Position numbers and translations under genes: made by a program. A stretch of DNA of 64,000 bases from Halobacterium litoreum. Lineage in GTDB: Archaea > Halobacteriota > Halobacteria > Halobacteriales > Halobacteriaceae. Numbering within the stretch: position 1 is the first letter of the stretch; each line of letters opens with the position of its first letter. The notes under the pieces were generated by a model. That model was given only the letters and a program-made list of their open reading frames with translations, did no database searches and was not told the origin of the DNA. The stretch spans positions 992,001 to 1,056,000 of the forward strand of contig NZ_CP089466.1 in the NCBI RefSeq assembly GCF_021233415.1. The letters run 5' to 3'. Shown here in pieces: positions 11,886 to 57,826 of this stretch.

Positions 11886-11933
11886 GCGAGTCGACTCCGA
11901 CCGTCACCGGAAAGTGCTTGGTGGTTCGACCGC

Positions 11934-11985
11934 GCCTACGCCTCGTCGACCCAGTCCGGCGTCTCCACGGTCGTCTCGTTCAGGC
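11934..11985. repeat. direct repeat copy B in paralogous lipoprotein genes
   Basis: Partner of 11161-11212, differing at a single base. Spacing between the copies is 773 bases, one gene unit. A second shared block encodes the DGAFVFEADS region in both genes. Confidence 0.9.
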
Positions 11986-12688
11986 CGCCGTACTCGGCGA
12001 CCGACAGAATCTCCGTCGTCTCGCCGTTCCGCTCGAGCGTCGCGCTCACGGACAGTTCGCGGACGACGCCGCGTTCGGTCACGCGGAGCGTCGCGCTCGT
12101 CTCGGTGACGTTCGCCACGTCGAGACCTCCCTCGGGGGCGTCGGGGTCGGGCGTCACGCTGTCGGCCTCGAAGACGAACGCGCCGTCCTCGTAGCCCTGG
12201 TACGCGAAGTCCCACTGTTCGATGATGGTGCCGTTGACCGTCAGCACGGTCTGCTGGTCGACGAACCGCGAGAAGTTCTGGTCGAAGGACTGGTTCGCGT
12301 ACTGGGGGTTCTCGGCGGTGCCCGACTTCGCGTACAACTGGCCGTCGGCGACGAACGTCTCCTGGATCTGGGTTCGGTTCCGGACCGACGAGGAGATGCT
12401 CAGGAACGCGCGCTCGGTGTCGCGGTTCGCCGCGAACGACACCGTCGTCTCGCCCTGCCCGCCCGAGGAGACGACCGCGTGTCGCTCCACCGACGTCGCG
12501 TTCGACACGACGGCGCGGTGTTCCGTTATCAGCGCGTCGAAGTCGACGGACTCGCCGTCGCTCCAGGACTGCTCGGCCAACTCGGGACTGTCGGCGCCGC
12601 CGTCGCCGGGACTGCCGGACAACGCACCGCTACAGCCGGCGAGGACGGTGAGGAAGGCGACCGCCACAGCGAGAAATCGTCTGTTCAC
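11936..12688 (-). CDS. lipoprotein, paralogue 2 of a tandem set of three
   Basis: A 250-residue lipoprotein. The GTG at 12688 was chosen because it yields VNRRFLAVAVAFLTVLAGC, matching the start of both paralogues; an upstream ATG at 12751 would add a non-signal leader. The lipobox VLAGC gives a lipidated cysteine at 19. The mature domain shares blocks with paralogue 1, including DGAFVFEADS and the end VETPDWVDEA. Substrate or partner is unknown. It lies 50 bases upstream of paralogue 1 on the same strand. Confidence 0.75.
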   Translation of the reverse strand: MNRRFLAVAVAFLTVLAGCSGALSGSPGDGGADSPELAEQSWSDGESVDFDALITEHRAVVSNATSVERHAVVSSGGQGETTVSFAANRDTERAFLSISSSVRNRTQIQETFVADGQLYAKSGTAENPQYANQSFDQNFSRFVDQQTVLTVNGTIIEQWDFAYQGYEDGAFVFEADSVTPDPDAPEGGLDVANVTETSATLRVTERGVVRELSVSATLERNGETTEILSVAEYGGLNETTVETPDWVDEA

Positions 12689-12772
12689 GCGATACTGTTC
12701 GACGGCACGTGCAAAGGCGTAGTGATTCGGCGCGCGAGACTCGCGTCGCACGCCGAAGTCGAAGCCGCCGCT

Positions 12773-13486
12773 TCACGGGGTGCGGTTCGCCCACGCGGGC
12801 ACCGCCACCGTCGCGTGGTTCACGCCGGTGACGCGGTAGGTGTACGTCGCCGCCGTCACTCGCCCGTCGTCACGGGTCGCGTGCTCCAAGCGGAGCGACC
12901 GAATGTATCCGCTGTCGTCGACGACCAACCGCCCGCCGACCGACGCGAAGTTGTAGGGCGCCGACTCGCTGAGTTCGCTCGCTCGGAACGCGTACCCGTC
13001 GTCGGTGCGCCCCGCGAACTCGAAGTCGTAGGCCGAGAGGAATCGGCGGGTCGGGAGTTCGACGTGTTGTATCCACGAGCGCTCCCGCTGGAACGCCTCG
13101 CCACGCCCGACTCGGAGGGACGCGTCGCCGCCACCGATATCGGTCTGCCTGACGTAGGTGGCGTTCGGGCCGACGAACCGCGTCAGTTCGTCGTCGTTGC
13201 CGGCGCGCGTGTTCCACTCGTGGGAGCGCGCCCGGCGCTGTGTGCGGTTCGCGACGAACTCAGTGGTTCGAACGACCGACCCGTTCACGCGACTCTCGTG
13301 GTACACGCGAACCGATTGGCCGTCCGAGAGCGCGCGCCGGTGTGCATCGTAGACCGCGTCCCAGTCGCCGCGCTCGACGTTCGTGACGACGGTCGGGTCG
13401 TCGACGGGGTTCGGGGCGGCGACGCCGAGACACCCCGACCCGACCGCGAGGAGGGCGACCGCCGCGGCGAGGACCTGTCTGTTCAC
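12773..13486 (-). CDS. lipoprotein, divergent paralogue 3 of a tandem set
   Basis: A 237-residue lipoprotein started at the GTG at 13486, giving VNRQVLAAAVALLAVGSGC with a lipobox-like VGSGC. It keeps the same order of blocks as the two genes downstream (RFV in the middle, YDFEFAG, the end VAVPAWANRTP) but has diverged further. It is likely the oldest copy of the tandem set. Function unknown. It lies 41 bases downstream of the stop of the thioredoxin reductase fusion gene and may be transcribed with it. Confidence 0.7.
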   Translation of the reverse strand: MNRQVLAAAVALLAVGSGCLGVAAPNPVDDPTVVTNVERGDWDAVYDAHRRALSDGQSVRVYHESRVNGSVVRTTEFVANRTQRRARSHEWNTRAGNDDELTRFVGPNATYVRQTDIGGGDASLRVGRGEAFQRERSWIQHVELPTRRFLSAYDFEFAGRTDDGYAFRASELSESAPYNFASVGGRLVVDDSGYIRSLRLEHATRDDGRVTAATYTYRVTGVNHATVAVPAWANRTP

Positions 13487-13527
13487 GAACCGGTGTATCA
13501 GAGTTGCGCGAAAGAACCTTGGGGCGG

Positions 13528-14856
13528 TCAGTCGTCCGCGGCGGCCGTCTCGCCGCCCTCGTCGGCGGCCGTCGCGGCCTCGCTGCCGAGGTACTCGTCG
13601 GCGTCGATGGCGGCCTTCGAGCCCATGCCGGCGGCGGTGACGGCCTGCTGGTAGTGATAGTCCACCACGTCGCCCGCGCCGAAGATGCCCTCCACGTCGG
13701 TCGCGGTCTGGTCGCCGCCACGCCCGCCGTGAGTGATGATGTAGCCGTCGTCGTCGAGTTCGACGCCCGTGTCTTCGAGGTAGCCCGTGTTCGGGGTGTG
13801 GCCGATGGCGACGAAGAACGCGCCGACGTCGAGCGTGAACTCCTCGGTGTCCTCGTCGTCCAGTTTCGCGGTCGGGTGGCCTTCGGGGTGGCGGACCAGC
13901 GAGACGTGGTCGACGCCGTCCTCGGCGGTGCCGTGGACCTCGGTGGCTTCCGTGTTCCACAGCACCTCGATGTCGCCGTCCTCGACCTTCTGCTGGATGC
14001 GGTCGGCCCAGTAGTCCTCCGCGCGGAGTTCGTCGCGGCGGTGGACGAGGTAGACGGTGTCCGCGAACTTCGTGAGGAAGTCGGCCTCCTCGGCGGCCGC
14101 GTCGCCGCCGCCGACGACGACCATGTCCTCGCCGCGGAAGAACGCGCCGTCGCAGGTCGCACACGTCGACACGCCGTACCCCATCAGTTCGTCCTCGCCG
14201 GGGATGCCGAGCGTGCGAGCGCTCGCGCCCGACGCCGCGATGACGGCGTCCGCGGTGTACACGTCGCCGTTCGCGAGTTCGACGCGGAACGGTCGCTGGG
14301 ACTCGTCGACGTGCTCGACGACGCCGTGTTCGACCTCGGCGCCGAAGCGCTTGGCCTGCTCTTTCATGTTGTTGATGAGTTCGGGGCCGGAGAGTCCCTC
14401 GGGGAAACCGGGGTAGTTCTCGACTTCCGTCGTGAGCGTGAGTTGGCCGCCGGGTTCGTCGCCCTCGAACAGCAGCGGGTCGTTGTTCGAGCGCGCCGCG
14501 TAGATGCCCGCCGTGAGCGCCGCGATACCAGTCCCGACGACGACGAGTTCGCGGTGTTCGACCACGTCGTCGGGTTCGCCGCCGTCCGTGACGAGGCCGA
14601 GTTTCTCGTCGAGTTCGCCGGTCTGGTCGAGTTCGTGGGTGTCGTCCCACCCGCCGATGAATTCGTCGTCGATGAACACCTCGGGCGCGGTCTCGCGGCC
14701 GTTCGCGCGCTCTTTCATCTCCGCGAACAGTTCCTCGTCACCGGTGACGTTGTACGTCTCGTAGTCGACGCCCTTCGCGTCGAAGAGGTCTTTGGCCTTC
14801 TCGCAGTACGTGCAGTTCGTCTTCGTGTAAATCTCTACGCGCGGCGTCTCGCTCAT
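13528..14856 (-). CDS. glutaredoxin-thioredoxin reductase fusion
   Basis: A 442-residue fusion. Residues 1-85 are a glutaredoxin domain with active site CTYC and the cis-proline motif TAPEVFIDD. From about residue 100 follows a thioredoxin-reductase-like flavoprotein: FAD motif VVGTGIAALTAG, redox centre CATC, NAD(P)-binding VVGGGDAAAEEA and C-terminal FAD motif GIFGAGDV. The ATG at 14856 starts directly at the glutaredoxin domain; the upstream in-frame leader has no such match. The flavin domain could reduce its own glutaredoxin domain, giving a self-contained thiol reductase, but this is inferred. The NAD(P) loop should be compared with ferredoxin-dependent types. Confidence 0.9.
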   Translation of the reverse strand: MSETPRVEIYTKTNCTYCEKAKDLFDAKGVDYETYNVTGDEELFAEMKERANGRETAPEVFIDDEFIGGWDDTHELDQTGELDEKLGLVTDGGEPDDVVEHRELVVVGTGIAALTAGIYAARSNNDPLLFEGDEPGGQLTLTTEVENYPGFPEGLSGPELINNMKEQAKRFGAEVEHGVVEHVDESQRPFRVELANGDVYTADAVIAASGASARTLGIPGEDELMGYGVSTCATCDGAFFRGEDMVVVGGGDAAAEEADFLTKFADTVYLVHRRDELRAEDYWADRIQQKVEDGDIEVLWNTEATEVHGTAEDGVDHVSLVRHPEGHPTAKLDDEDTEEFTLDVGAFFVAIGHTPNTGYLEDTGVELDDDGYIITHGGRGGDQTATDVEGIFGAGDVVDYHYQQAVTAAGMGSKAAIDADEYLGSEAATAADEGGETAAADD

Positions 14857-14984
14857 GTCTCTACTTCGACGGTCGGGCCGTTTGTAGATTCCGCTGACCG
14901 ACGACGCCGCCGGTAGTTGTGCGCGGAGCGCGCACGACCGCTCGAACCCAAGCACTTACCGCCGTCGTCGCCCGAACGCAGACT

Positions 14985-15269
14985 ATGCCCGCCGACCTCC
15001 ACGAGAAGATGGACCGCTACGAGGGACTGCTCGCCGAGGCGCTCGCCGAGGCCGAACCGGTCGCCCCCGAGGGGACGCCGCTGGACGACGCCGCAGCCGA
15101 GTACGAGGAGATGGCGCGCTCCTACCTCGACGACGGGCGGCACTTCAAGGAACACGACGACCCCGTGAACGCGCTCGCCGCGTTCTCCTACGGGCACGCG
15201 TGGCTGGACGCCGGCGCGCGCATCGGCCTGTTCGACGTGCCCGAGTCCGGCCACCTGTTCACCGTCTGA
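14985..15269 (+). CDS. DUF357 family protein
   Basis: A 94-residue all-helical archaeal protein of the DUF357 type (LHEKMDRYEGLLAEALAEAE at the start, ALAAFSYGHAWLDAGAR near the end). The ATG at 14985 was chosen because the upstream extension is unrelated to the family. Function is not known. It is divergent from the thioredoxin reductase fusion, with 128 bases between the two starts. Confidence 0.8.
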   Translation: MPADLHEKMDRYEGLLAEALAEAEPVAPEGTPLDDAAAEYEEMARSYLDDGRHFKEHDDPVNALAAFSYGHAWLDAGARIGLFDVPESGHLFTV

Positions 15270-53235: not shown

Positions 53236-53419
53236 TCACCCCTCGTACGCCCGCCACACGTACAGCGACGCGTACGACCGGTAGGGCGCCCACCGTCCCG
53301 CAATCTCGCGCATCTCGCCGCGTGTCGTGTCGTCGCCGAACAGTTGCTCCATCCCGCGCCGGATGCCGAGGTCGCCGACCGGGAACACGTCCTCGCGCCC
53401 GAGCGCGAACATGAGGAAC
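53236..53419 (-). pseudogene. C-terminal half of disrupted AlkA-type DNA glycosylase
   Basis: This 184-base fragment encodes the C-terminal 60 residues of an HhH-GPD glycosylase, including VFPVGDLGIRRG with the catalytic aspartate and RSYASLYVWRAYEG at the end. In frame upstream is a stop inside the integrated element, so it is separated from its N-terminal half (57422-57826). It shares the 11-bp core acatgaggaac at its left boundary. Joined, the two parts give an in-frame 191-residue protein. Confidence 0.9.
53409..53419. repeat. attL-type core of the integrative element
   Basis: acatgaggaac, next to the C-terminal half of the broken glycosylase gene. Identical to 57424-57434. It encodes part of F-L-M-F in the intact gene. 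Confidence 0.88.
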
Positions 53420-53433
53420 GTGTCCCGAATTTG

Positions 53434-53448
53434 TGAAAACTATTTTCA
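53434..53448 (+). promoter_or_regulatory. palindromic operator/TATA region before RHH gene
   Basis: tgaaaactattttca: perfect 6-bp half-sites around cta. It is centred 31 bases before the ATG at 53472, so it overlaps the likely TATA box of the first element gene. Probable target of the ribbon-helix-helix protein encoded directly downstream. Confidence 0.5.
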
Positions 53449-53471
53449 AAGTGGGTTGCGAAGACAGAGGT

Positions 53472-54017
53472 ATGCCACACGTTGGCGTCAGCGTGAACGA
53501 GGCGACGAAGGAGGACTGGGAGGAGTACGTCGAGGAAACTGATTATGGAAGCATCAGCGAGTTAGTTCGATCATCAGTACGGAAGGAGATTGCAAGGGAG
53601 AGTGACGGCGACGGGGTTCCCCGCGAAGTTGAAGCGGAGTTAACTGAGGTTGCAGAGACACAGGCCACACTCCGCGAACAGATGGCCGACCTACTGGAAG
53701 GCTTCGAGGACGTCGAGGCGGCGACGGCGACTCAGTACCCGTCGGAGATCGTGGAACTTGGCCACGACATTGCGGGCGAACTTGAGGAAGTTCACGCCGA
53801 CCGATTCGCGGAGTGGGAGAGTGAGACGCAGAGCGAGCTGTGGGACGTCGCGCAGGAACAGTCGGGGAACGTGAGTGTTGGGGAAGTGAAGGACGCGCTG
53901 GAGTATTTGGAGGAGAACCTGTCCTATGTTCGGACGAAGCCACGGGGGCCGAGTGAGTATTTCCGCGTGAGGGGACAGCCAGCAAACGTGCGGAATCGGG
54001 AACGAGGTGACGAGTGA
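53472..54017 (+). CDS. ribbon-helix-helix regulator of the element
   Basis: A 181-residue protein. The N-terminal 45 residues fit a CopG/Arc-type ribbon-helix-helix DNA-binding domain (MPHVGVSVNEATKEDWEEYV, then ISELVRSSVRKEI). The rest is helical and charged with a coiled-coil look, probably for dimerisation. The ATG at 53472 was chosen from the domain and the promoter spacing. Its stop is followed after one base by the integrase ATG, so the two form an operon. It likely controls integrase expression. Confidence 0.75.
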   Translation: MPHVGVSVNEATKEDWEEYVEETDYGSISELVRSSVRKEIARESDGDGVPREVEAELTEVAETQATLREQMADLLEGFEDVEAATATQYPSEIVELGHDIAGELEEVHADRFAEWESETQSELWDVAQEQSGNVSVGEVKDALEYLEENLSYVRTKPRGPSEYFRVRGQPANVRNRERGDE

Positions 54018-54018
54018 G

Positions 54019-54996
54019 ATGTTCGAGGAGTTCGAGGAGTTCGTTGTTGACCTGGAACTGAATCAGGAGGCCTCGGAGAATACCGTGAGTATCCGCGAGC
54101 GCCATCTTTCGGAGTTCTCGGAGTTCGTGGACGTTGACGACGTCGAGGACGTGAGTCGCCGCGACATTTCCCGTTACGTCGATTGGTTGGTTGACGAGGG
54201 ATATGCACCGAACACCATTGAATCGCGGTATGGCTCCGTCTCGGCGGCATACAATCATCTGTTTGTGGAGGACTTGGTTGACAACAATCCGATTAAGCGG
54301 ATGAAGCGGAAGGCGATTCGGAAGAAGGCACAGAAGGCGAAGACGGAGGCGGAGAAGAAAGCGGAGGACGATGCGAAGGACTACCTCACGAAGGCTGAGG
54401 TCTACGAGTTGGCCGAGAGTGTTCCTGAACCGACCGATAGGAACGAACTGCTCGTGAAACTGCTATTCTGGACGGGGGCGCGAGTGAGTGAAGTCGTCCG
54501 AATTGACATAGGGCGGGATGGTTCTGTTGACGGCGAGGGAAGCGACATTGACGTCCAGAAACCCTGTATCAAGGTGTACGCGCCGAAGACGGACGAATCA
54601 CGGTCTGTTTCCTATCCACGGGGGGAGATTAACCCACTTCTCCGTGACTGGGTTCGGAACGGACGGCTCCGCTACAAGTACGCCAACGAGTCGCGCAGGC
54701 TGTTCCTCGGACGGAAGAAGCCCCTGACGGAGAGTGGTGTTGCGAGAGTCGTGAAGAAGGCGGCGGAGAACGCGGGAATACAAGAGGTTGATCATGTGTC
54801 GAAAGACGGGCGTAAGTACCACCGCGTCACCCCCCACTTGCTTAGGCATAGCCACGCGATGTACCAGCACAACGAGCGCGGTGTTTCCTTCGATGAATTG
54901 AAGGCTCATCTCGGCCACTCGTCGGTTGATACCACGGAGAAGTTCTACGCGGAGGGTACGGAGGAAATGGTCGTCAATACGTTTGGTTCCGAGTAG
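54019..54996 (+). CDS. tyrosine-type site-specific integrase
   Basis: A 325-residue tyrosine recombinase. A SAM-like core-binding domain covers residues 1-90, a Lys/Glu-rich linker about 90-120, and the catalytic domain the rest. The catalytic set is complete: Arg155 (TGARVSE), His273 and Arg276 (HLLRH), His300 (LGHSS) and Tyr310 (TTEKFY). It is not split by the attachment site, unlike SSV-type integrases. A GTG at 54007 is an alternative start. It should catalyse insertion and removal at the 11-bp core. Confidence 0.9.
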   Translation: MFEEFEEFVVDLELNQEASENTVSIRERHLSEFSEFVDVDDVEDVSRRDISRYVDWLVDEGYAPNTIESRYGSVSAAYNHLFVEDLVDNNPIKRMKRKAIRKKAQKAKTEAEKKAEDDAKDYLTKAEVYELAESVPEPTDRNELLVKLLFWTGARVSEVVRIDIGRDGSVDGEGSDIDVQKPCIKVYAPKTDESRSVSYPRGEINPLLRDWVRNGRLRYKYANESRRLFLGRKKPLTESGVARVVKKAAENAGIQEVDHVSKDGRKYHRVTPHLLRHSHAMYQHNERGVSFDELKAHLGHSSVDTTEKFYAEGTEEMVVNTFGSE

Positions 54997-55717
54997 TATA
55001 ACTGGCGCGCATACTGCCCTTTCTCAGAATCGGTGTGAGTGGTCTTTGAGCGGCTTCAGATTCTTCCGAGAGGAAATCATCCTATCGACGCAAGAAATCG
55101 CTCTGACGGACACACAGGAGGATGCGGTTCCAGAGACACCCCTCAGACCTTCGACGTCGTGACGGCCACGGCCCGCCGTGACTGTTCCGCCGCCGAGGAC
55201 GTCCACGAGGAGGCGAGCAGACTGCGAACCTCGACGTAGCCAGCCAGCCAAGCGACGGCGGCGGACGTGCGCCAGCGCGGGCCGGGGTTCCATAAATTCG
55301 TTCACTACACCGTGGGTACGTTGCTGTGGTACACTACACCGTCGTTGTGCTATTGCTGTGTATACCATCCCTCGTCGTAATTTAGCGCGAGCGCCGAGGC
55401 ACGCGTGTACGCACGTCATCTGGACTAGTTATTAAGAACCATTAAGGATTCGGTGTGGTGTGTTGGTTCCCACCCCGTGGTCCAACTGCGGAGGGGGCGG
55501 AGACGATACGGCACCGATTCGGTGCGGGGATGCTTACTGCCCCCTGTTATGCCGTGGTAATTTGGTGGGAAATCTGTCTCCCCCGATGCCCTCCCATGCG
55601 GTTGTCGTTCGTCGTTCCGTTGCTATCTTTGACACCCCAGTTTACTGGAATACTTCAGGTCATTATGCCCGTTGTGGCACCACAAGGATTAGGCAGAACG
55701 CATTACAAATAGAACGT
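54997..55717. other. 721-bp gene-poor stretch in the element
   Basis: No gene can be supported with confidence. It contains imperfect direct repeats (55303-55360), small palindromes at 55511-55525 and 55672-55685, and a patch of host-like high GC around 55180-55290. A frame open from 55460 into the next gene could extend it at the N-terminus. The region may hold a replication origin or regulatory sites, by inference. Confidence 0.5.
55303..55360. repeat. iteron-like imperfect direct repeat pair
   Basis: Two units each have cactacaccgt (55303 and 55332) followed by ttgctgtg (55321 and 55353). The unit spacing is about 29-32 bases. AT-rich flanks lie on both sides. Confidence 0.5.
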
Positions 55718-56104
55718 ATGAATGAGGACTCATTTAATACAGACAGGCCCATCAAAGAGTTGGGAGTGCGTCATGTTGAGGGGTACTTTAACCTCAACTC
55801 AGGGCGATTAGAAGAGGTCTTGATTGAGGTTGCGGATACCAACCCCACGGAGAAAGTCTGGTGGTCCGTTAGTTATGCTGTGGATTTAGGGGAGGCTAAG
55901 GTGGGCCAGTTTCCCGAGATTAGAGATCCCTCAAAGTTGGCTGAGGTATTGACACGGTCTGATTTGGCGGTGAGAAAGATCGACACGATAGATACCGTTG
56001 TTCCGTGGCATGAAGAGTTCAGAGAGCAGTATCGAGGAATGGACCTTGATGATATAGAAGAGCAATTACCCAAATTTACAAAATTAGAGGAGGAGTCAGA
56101 CTAA
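55718..56104 (+). CDS. hypothetical element-encoded protein
   Basis: A 128-residue acidic soluble protein of low-GC codon use, quite unlike the host genes. It has a beta-rich start (IKELGVRHVEGYFNLNSGRL) and a helical, charged C-terminus. No family recognised. The ATG at 55718 was chosen because sequence before it (cys-rich frame from 55460) overlaps palindromes that look regulatory, though an 86-residue extension is open. Possibly cargo or a control protein of the element. Confidence 0.55.
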   Translation: MNEDSFNTDRPIKELGVRHVEGYFNLNSGRLEEVLIEVADTNPTEKVWWSVSYAVDLGEAKVGQFPEIRDPSKLAEVLTRSDLAVRKIDTIDTVVPWHEEFREQYRGMDLDDIEEQLPKFTKLEEESD

Positions 56105-56195
56105 CTGATTCATAGGTAGATTATCGATTTCGTTGCAAAGTCTGTATCTGAGAGTGCTGAAAACTCAATCAGCATAATGTGGTTCAGGCGGTGGG

Positions 56196-56774
56196 TTAGT
56201 CCTCGTAGGCCTTCCAAAGATAGAGAGATGCATAGGATCGAAACGGCTTCCAGCGGGTTGCCGCGTCTCGCATTTCTCCCCTCGTCATCTCTTCTTCAAA
56301 GAGAGTCTCCATTCCCTTTCGAATGCCGAGGTCCTCGACGGGGAAGACGTCAGGCCGACCCAACCCAAACATCAGTTGCATACGAGCCGTCCAAGGGCCG
56401 ACGCCTTTGATATTGGTGAGTTCCGTGACGACGTCGTCGTTGCTCATTTCTTCAAAGTAGGCATGGGAGTATTCGTTTTCCATGAATGCAGTAGCGATGT
56501 TTTGGATGTAGTCGGCTTTCGCTTGTGAGAGACCTACATTGAGCAGGGCTTCGGTATTGGTACGCTCGATGGATCTGGGGGTGACGTCAATAGTGTCGAA
56601 AAGGCGTTCGCGTATTGCGGCAGCTGATTGCATAGATACCTGCTGGCGAATAATTGAGATGACGAACCGTTGAAAGAGATTGTCAACAGGTTCGAGAGTA
56701 ACTGGCCCATGTTCGTTGACGACCGTGCTGAGGACTCTGTCGTCGCGGAGATATTCGACGGCTTGCTCGCTCAT
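56196..56774 (-). CDS. intact AlkA-type DNA-3-methyladenine glycosylase (element copy)
   Basis: A 192-residue HhH-GPD glycosylase expected to remove alkylated bases from DNA. The hairpin is TNIKGVGPWTARM (about 120-132) and the catalytic aspartate is Asp148 in VFPVEDLGIRKG. It is full length compared with the reconstructed host gene (191 residues) and matches it at roughly 57% of positions by hand alignment, without internal gaps. It has low-GC codon use. It lies inside the element that splits the host gene and could replace it. At the position of the integration core it reads acatcagttgc. Confidence 0.85.
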   Translation of the reverse strand: MSEQAVEYLRDDRVLSTVVNEHGPVTLEPVDNLFQRFVISIIRQQVSMQSAAAIRERLFDTIDVTPRSIERTNTEALLNVGLSQAKADYIQNIATAFMENEYSHAYFEEMSNDDVVTELTNIKGVGPWTARMQLMFGLGRPDVFPVEDLGIRKGMETLFEEEMTRGEMRDAATRWKPFRSYASLYLWKAYED

Positions 56775-56822
56775 TCACACCAAGGGAAGGAACAGACGTT
56801 GATGTAGTTATGCCTCTTCTCG

Positions 56823-57344
56823 TTAATCGCTGTGTTGGCCTTCGGCTCTGGGGTACTGAGAGATTATCAACAATTCCGACAAAGCAAATGCGATTAACAT
56901 CATGATTAGCGTTGCTACAGGCCGATTGAGTTCCCATCCTAACCAAGGAATGGCAATGAAAATAGCAGTAAATGCCACGACGTAATTTATCTCAGGGTCC
57001 GAGATTTGTTGGAAGGCAATAGTCATGAGGACGATCACACCTAACCCAGTGAAAGCCAATCCCCCTTGACCCACTCCTATGAGTGCCTGTCTCAAGGAGT
57101 CCTCCGACAGAATATTATTCTCCTTGGTGAGAAAAATCATAATTTCCATCCCTGCTCGGCCAAAGAGGTAGAGAGAAGCTCCTGCCATGGCGAAACCGAT
57201 CCCGAAGAAAGGCATTAGTGTCGGCTGTTTCTGTAGCTCGACACTCTTCACCAGTTTCGAGAAAACTTGCATTACAACAGCCCATGCTGGCAGGAAGAGC
57301 GCAATAAGCTGAATCAGTGGAACCACCACGTCGACGGACACCAT
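56823..57344 (-). CDS. element-encoded multi-pass membrane protein
   Basis: A 173-residue membrane protein with about four to five hydrophobic segments (near 5-28, 43-63, 88-110, 118-137, 143-160) and low-GC codons. It ends with a short polar tail. No family recognised. It lies 48 bases upstream of the glycosylase gene on the same strand, so the two may be cotranscribed. It could be an immunity or exclusion protein, but there is no direct evidence. Confidence 0.6.
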   Translation of the reverse strand: MVSVDVVVPLIQLIALFLPAWAVVMQVFSKLVKSVELQKQPTLMPFFGIGFAMAGASLYLFGRAGMEIMIFLTKENNILSEDSLRQALIGVGQGGLAFTGLGVIVLMTIAFQQISDPEINYVVAFTAIFIAIPWLGWELNRPVATLIMMLIAFALSELLIISQYPRAEGQHSD

Positions 57345-57421
57345 GACGTGATGGCTATCAAGTAGTGTGTTAGACTTTTCCCTGATTGAGGAAGAATTGA
57401 AATCTATTGAAACCCAATTAA

Positions 57422-57826
57422 TTACATGAGGAACATCTCGGCCGTCCAGTCGCCGACGCCCGTGATGGCGGTGAGTTCGTCGCGGACCTCGTCGTTCGCG
57501 AGGCCGGCGAAGTGCGAGTGGTCGTAGCCGTGGTCGTGGAACGCCTCGGCGACGTTCCGCACGTAGTCGGTCTTCTGAGTGGAGAGTCCCGCGTCCCGGA
57601 GCGTCTCGGGGTCGGCGCTCGCGACGCCCGCGGGCGTCACCTCGACGGCGTCGAACAGGCGCTCGCGGATGGCGGCCGCGGCGTCCATCGACACCTGCTG
57701 GCGGACGATGGAGACGACGAGGCGCTCGAACGGGTCGTCTGCGGGGTCGAGTTCGAGTTCGCCGTGCTCGGCGACGAGCGGCGCGAGGTCCGGGTCGTCG
57801 CGGAGCGCGTCGTGTGGGTCGGCCAT
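57422..57826 (-). pseudogene. N-terminal part of disrupted AlkA-type DNA glycosylase
   Basis: Encodes 134 residues, MADPHDALRDDPDLAPLVAE through the hairpin TAITGVGDWTAEM, then a stop created at the element junction. It lacks the catalytic aspartate and the C-terminal 57 residues, which are in 53236-53412. It has high-GC host codons, unlike the element copy. The truncated product is probably inactive. Confidence 0.9.
57424..57434. repeat. attR-type core of the integrative element
   Basis: acatgaggaac, next to the N-terminal half of the broken gene. Beyond it the element sequence gives an immediate TAA stop. Confidence 0.88.

Follow-up and report, generated by a model that had tools for sequence, protein, structure and literature searches.

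The window, a stretch of 64,000 nucleotides from Halobacterium litoreum, contains a 4,015-bp element of low GC content that encodes a tyrosine integrase and sits within the gene of an AlkA2-type HhH-GPD glycosylase. The locus is made up of the following features.

53236–53412, minus strand: host glycosylase, C-terminal part, including the conserved Asp in VGDLGIRRG
53409–53419, minus strand: attR-like core acatgaggaac
53472–54017, plus strand: small protein ahead of the integrase, overlapping the integrase start
54007–54996, plus strand: tyrosine integrase of 329 aa (Phage_integrase, PF00589, E 4.9e-20; SAM-like N domain)
55718–56104, plus strand: open reading frame of 128 aa, without a family match
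56196–56774, minus strand: complete AlkA2-type glycosylase of the element, 192 aa, 52% GC (full-length HhH-GPD, PF00730, E 3e-15)
56823–57344, minus strand: hydrophobic protein of 173 aa with ∼4 membrane helices by eye, without a family match
57424–57434, minus strand: attL-like core acatgaggaac (gttcctcatgt in the gene sense; glycosylase codons M-F-L-M)
57435–57826, minus strand: host alkA2-type glycosylase, N-terminal part, starting at 57826

The original prediction described two halves of one HhH-GPD gene flanking a low-GC element with identical 11-bp ends, and this description is borne out: Pfam divides the HhH-GPD domain between both flanks with the tyrosine integrase in between, GC content is 53% in the element compared to 71% in the joined gene and 68% in the window, and acatgaggaac occurs twice on the same strand (53409–53419 and 57424–57434), with no third site in the window. 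A match of at least 11 bases arose between random 40- by 40-base pairs of the window in 41 of 20,000 trials (∼0.2%); taken alone the repeat is suggestive, and combined with the remaining evidence it is strong. Joining 57435–57826 to 53236–53419 yields, as predicted, 576 nucleotides with no inner stop, although the claimed 192 codons are in fact 191 codons plus the stop. The open frame of the N-terminal part ends at a stop at 57422, just within the element. Since the core separates the helix-hairpin-helix motif (GVGDWTA) from the motif carrying the Asp (VGDLGIRRG), which is the catalytic residue of known AlkA enzymes, neither fragment should work alone by known AlkA chemistry.

The element is present once in its own genome. 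Its integrase retains, as judged by eye, all residues of the R...HxxR...H...Y signature and belongs to PHROG 1; against the NCBIfam XerA model (NF040815) it scores 130 bits, under the cut-off of 220. The small protein ahead of it, for which all matches are weak, is possibly a ribbon-helix-helix (RHH) DNA-binding protein and shows 25 to 28% identity to equally placed proteins of elements found in two other genomes (G136 and G271; see below). Within the element, positions 55000–55450 hold no clear gene and have a GC content nearer 59%; this may be a leftover of older DNA, from the host or from an element. When attB was folded as a single strand, no special feature emerged.

The original prediction looked to uninterrupted homologues in relatives and took a complete lack of them as evidence against insertion. 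Of the 12 genus mates, 11 carry one such homologue each, all at the same place adjoining a 3-hydroxyacyl-CoA dehydrogenase gene and, in most of the 11, near an ATP-grasp (RimK-like) gene. Ten of the 12 genus mates carry native-type genes at this locus, 67 to 82% identical to the joined host protein; the eleventh uninterrupted gene (genome G008), at the same locus, is a hybrid, and the twelfth genome, which is 87% complete, has no close match. These empty sites contradict a reading without recent insertion, in which the two genes are diverged paralogues and a rearrangement broke one of them. We regard that reading as scarcely credible: nothing was found in its favor beyond the presence of two related genes, and the integrase, the matched cores, the GC shift, and the restored frame weigh against it along with the syntenic empty sites.

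The original prediction saw a plain gene disruption. Insertion stands, and bare disruption does not, since the element also supplies a complete glycosylase gene (56196–56774). The encoded protein is identical to the joined host protein at 108 of 192 aligned positions (56%), and a search of the whole genome (2.71 Mb, two contigs) returned, besides this copy, only both fragments and one weak match (32%); the element copy is thus the sole intact gene of its kind in this genome. The predicted enzyme carries both KGVGPWTA (helix-hairpin-helix) and VEDLGIRKG (catalytic Asp) in alignment with solved structures, the closest being 2yg8 (E 5e-29 over residues 5 to 188). The entries 2yg8 and 2yg9 are AlkA2 of Deinococcus radiodurans, the closest solved relative of the element-borne enzyme by sequence comparison and a bacterial enzyme that, unlike ours, is chromosomal. 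In an IQ-TREE phylogeny of 62 proteins, the joined host gene groups in the marked (starred) clade of 11 genus genes, whereas the element copy falls outside this clade and pairs with the gene of G008 (100/96). A recent duplication of the host gene as the origin of the copy was rejected, as placement of the copy inside the genus clade gave a p-AU of 0.018. Searched against plasmids and phages as well as viral and genome contigs, the copy had distant homologues only, or none. Its core region departs from the att core at 4 of 11 bases, and the element's integrase would therefore probably act on it poorly. Counted by hand, ∼4 of 11 to 13 bases differ between copy and att core in the window, G418, and G345. 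We infer that the mismatched core would lower recombination with the copy, although the mismatch could also be explained by general divergence.

We surveyed ∼555 haloarchaeal genomes and traced candidate insertions through those with two partial matches and through every genome of three families (148, 125, and 171 genomes). The glycosylase family is present in 329 of 344 genomes sampled from the order, mostly as a single copy. Five further integrase-bearing elements, in other genera and several families, occupy the same three codons.

G136: core of 16 bp, element of ∼4.7 kb
G271: core of 7 bp, element divided over two contigs
G358: core of 9 bp, element of 11.5 kb
G418: core of 11 bp, element of 16.9 kb
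G508: core of 12 bp, element of 8.6 kb

Together with the empty sites in genus mates, these elements uphold the view of the original prediction that a repair-protein gene serves as the insertion target. The flanks of each of the five join into an open glycosylase frame. All these elements have a tyrosine integrase near one end, and a small RHH-like protein gene lies ahead of it in every one for which that region was viewed (all save G358). The elements occur in both orientations, and their integrases are only ∼30% identical to each other, except for the G271/G508 pair (58%). A search for close relatives of the window integrase in the genus, the 344 genomes of the order, plasmids, and viral contigs found none. 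At the DNA level, the window element resembles the other elements only in alkA, in short stretches (one of them within an integrase), and in a junction arm in G345. What the six joined sites have in common is an ATG, a 5-bp center with CT as its last bases, and a right arm resembling CAT, a core that by eye is nearly symmetric.

An alkA copy recurs as well. The G418 element carries a complete, different alkA at the end away from the integrase and facing it, the same layout as in the window element. Two further insertions have lost their integrase. In G345, a complete foreign alkA lies beside a decayed native N-terminal fragment that stops precisely at the core, with TAATTAAcTGG coming next as at the window junction; G325 holds a native C-terminal remnant together with a complete sister of G345's foreign alkA. 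In G008, the N-terminal part of the hybrid gene is identical to the window element's copy at 90 of 135 positions (compared to 58 to 68 of 134 for native genes), the C-terminal part is identical to a native gene at 53 of 56, and the breakpoint, at residues 133 to 140, coincides with the core; the adjoining low-GC DNA has a GmrSD-like gene and no integrase, and the element ends are missing. The sequences show integrase-type insertion at a recurrent site, a complete substitute carried by both the window and G418 elements and by one decayed insertion, and a hybrid gene in a fourth genome.

That an element may carry a repair gene for other reasons, its match with the target being coincidental, is a rather unlikely explanation. 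Intact cases of an element with a complete copy number only two (the window and G418), which weighs against our preferred reading (below). No copy is visible in the other four of six integrase-bearing elements (G136, G358, G508, and G271, the last seen in part); this would fit ordinary cargo, as would the distant AlkA homologues on some plasmids and phages. Yet the family is nearly always single copy, and two of six elements, one decayed insertion, and one hybrid nonetheless bring alkA, which lies at the same place within both intact elements. More than one match occurs in ∼26 of 344 genomes, which puts the rate of extra copies at no more than ∼2e-8 per base; over the six elements (∼51 kb in total), ∼0.001 extra alkA copies would be expected by this rough hand estimate, compared to two observed. 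The sample may have been filtered by selection, with insertions that bring a copy surviving better, which is the proposed effect itself. Since some elements lack a copy, hosts tolerate the insertion even then, and loss of the glycosylase is perhaps bearable owing to other HhH-GPD glycosylases, seen as weak matches.

The second copy could instead be an unselected by-product of recombination, through either a nested insertion or a faulty excision that captured another host's alkA. Elements residing in alkA are well placed to acquire it, and G008 has indeed recombined an element-type with a host alkA at the core, but faulty excision should yield a fragment rather than an entire gene that has both start and stop, and the copies of the window, G418, and G345 are complete and embedded in foreign low-GC DNA; we consider this origin quite improbable. 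It is still more improbable that the locus is a switch, with the native enzyme regained by excision when some condition calls for it and the element copy serving as an isoform under different regulation: both fragments are undamaged here and their joined frame is open, whereas the native fragments in G345 and G325 have decayed.

Our preferred reading, which we hold to be probable, is that an integrase element inserted into the host alkA2 gene and brought a complete divergent glycosylase that would replace the broken enzyme. The first part, insertion of an integrase-bearing element into the glycosylase gene, is strongly supported, since the anatomy, the empty sites, and the recurrence all support it; the sequence would also permit precise excision. 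In the proposed course of events, the element's attP recombined through its tyrosine integrase with an attB inside the host AlkA2-type gene, in the codons just past the helix-hairpin-helix motif, and so cut the gene into an N-terminal part with this motif and a C-terminal part with the catalytic Asp. The complete divergent gene, placed at the end opposite the integrase, is the only intact one after integration and therefore most likely replaces the destroyed enzyme. We infer that this substitute is expressed and active and would stand in for the lost enzyme, offsetting the cost of using the site, while its altered core may shield it from the element's integrase. To judge from G345 and G325, the element could then decay while the foreign copy persists and permanently takes the native gene's place. 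That this and other elements at the site supply a substitute gene changes the meaning of the insertion. The same arrangement, independent in other salt-loving archaea, points to elements that provide a stand-in for whatever gene they disrupt, and our best reading of the site is a recurrent integration hotspot whose elements sometimes do so. More tentatively, and with less than even confidence, we speculate about a haloarchaeal class of "insert-and-rescue" elements: diverse integrases may have converged on one conserved stretch of the glycosylase gene, and some elements may carry whole substitutes that are not themselves targets, so that insertion would be harmless and the foreign gene would finally replace the native one in place.

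Known cases of gene-restoring integration concern tRNA genes and a few protein genes, and only a gene end is resupplied. In one parallel to our site, a single protein gene, dusA, is the target that the tyrosine integrases of numerous elements share, and the island makes good the loss caused by integration with a new 5′ end fused in frame; there only this end is resupplied, whereas the window element has a whole separate substitute gene (PMC4482086). A dusA-type in-frame fusion at the att site is not found in the window, where the host gene stays split, and occurs only in G008. Archaeal integrases, according to PMC8371274, use mostly tRNA genes and sometimes protein genes. Those of the SSV, pNOB8, SNJ2, and pTN3 types resemble ours in inserting site specifically without net loss of target function, but there the tRNA gene is rebuilt at one element end, whereas here the protein gene stays broken (PMC8371274). 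Integrative elements within archaeal protein genes include BJ1 in the HMG-CoA reductase gene, Msmi-Pro1, and NitGar-E6 (PMC8371274, section 19), as well as a ∼10-kb element with 8-bp repeats in Halobacterium pilB2 (PMC10264941); unlike for our element, the passages on them in these two sources mention no substitute copy of the target. No element bearing a full and separate version of the gene it targets was described in the literature searched, which was mainly open access and hence is weak evidence of novelty. A whole-gene substitute is best read as an extension of the gene-restoring integration known from tRNA genes and dusA. A whole diverged substitute, carried to one site in several independent lineages, would be a direct route for the in-place foreign swap of a housekeeping repair gene, and research on archaeal integrases gains a hotspot outside tRNA genes that has a near-symmetric core and is open to laboratory testing.

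Some genomes were left uncounted: G288 and G472 (two complete copies without signs of an element), G261 (only the C-terminal part of the gene, with neither a GC drop nor an insert seen), and G116 (a small break plus an intact copy). The two diverged alkA genes of G288 and G472 lie close together (L068 and L095), and two matches per genome are usual in the genus of G288. In eight genomes with a divergent alkA (G287, G191, G337, G082, G089, G311, G397, and G400), a search for native remnants found none, and they were left uncounted for this reason; in G287 and G191 (L076 and L077), the divergent gene sits at the usual locus in the orientation opposite to that of a genus mate's gene and may be an old replacement that arose in this way. 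In one genus (group g60), none of the five genomes sampled (G169 and G490 to G493) has this near-universal glycosylase.

Elements at the alkA site also seem rich in defense genes. In G008, a restriction-like gene of the GmrSD type (DUF262/DUF1524) lies in L030:3769–7196, along with a 366-aa gene that belongs to no known family. The G418 element has a serine-recombinase-like gene and a long gene resembling, by eye, a type IIG restriction-modification enzyme (L092:9105–9887 and 11902–15045), and both decayed insertions carry a gene that by eye resembles Mrr-type restriction endonucleases (L069:7802–8482 and L075:5353–5988).
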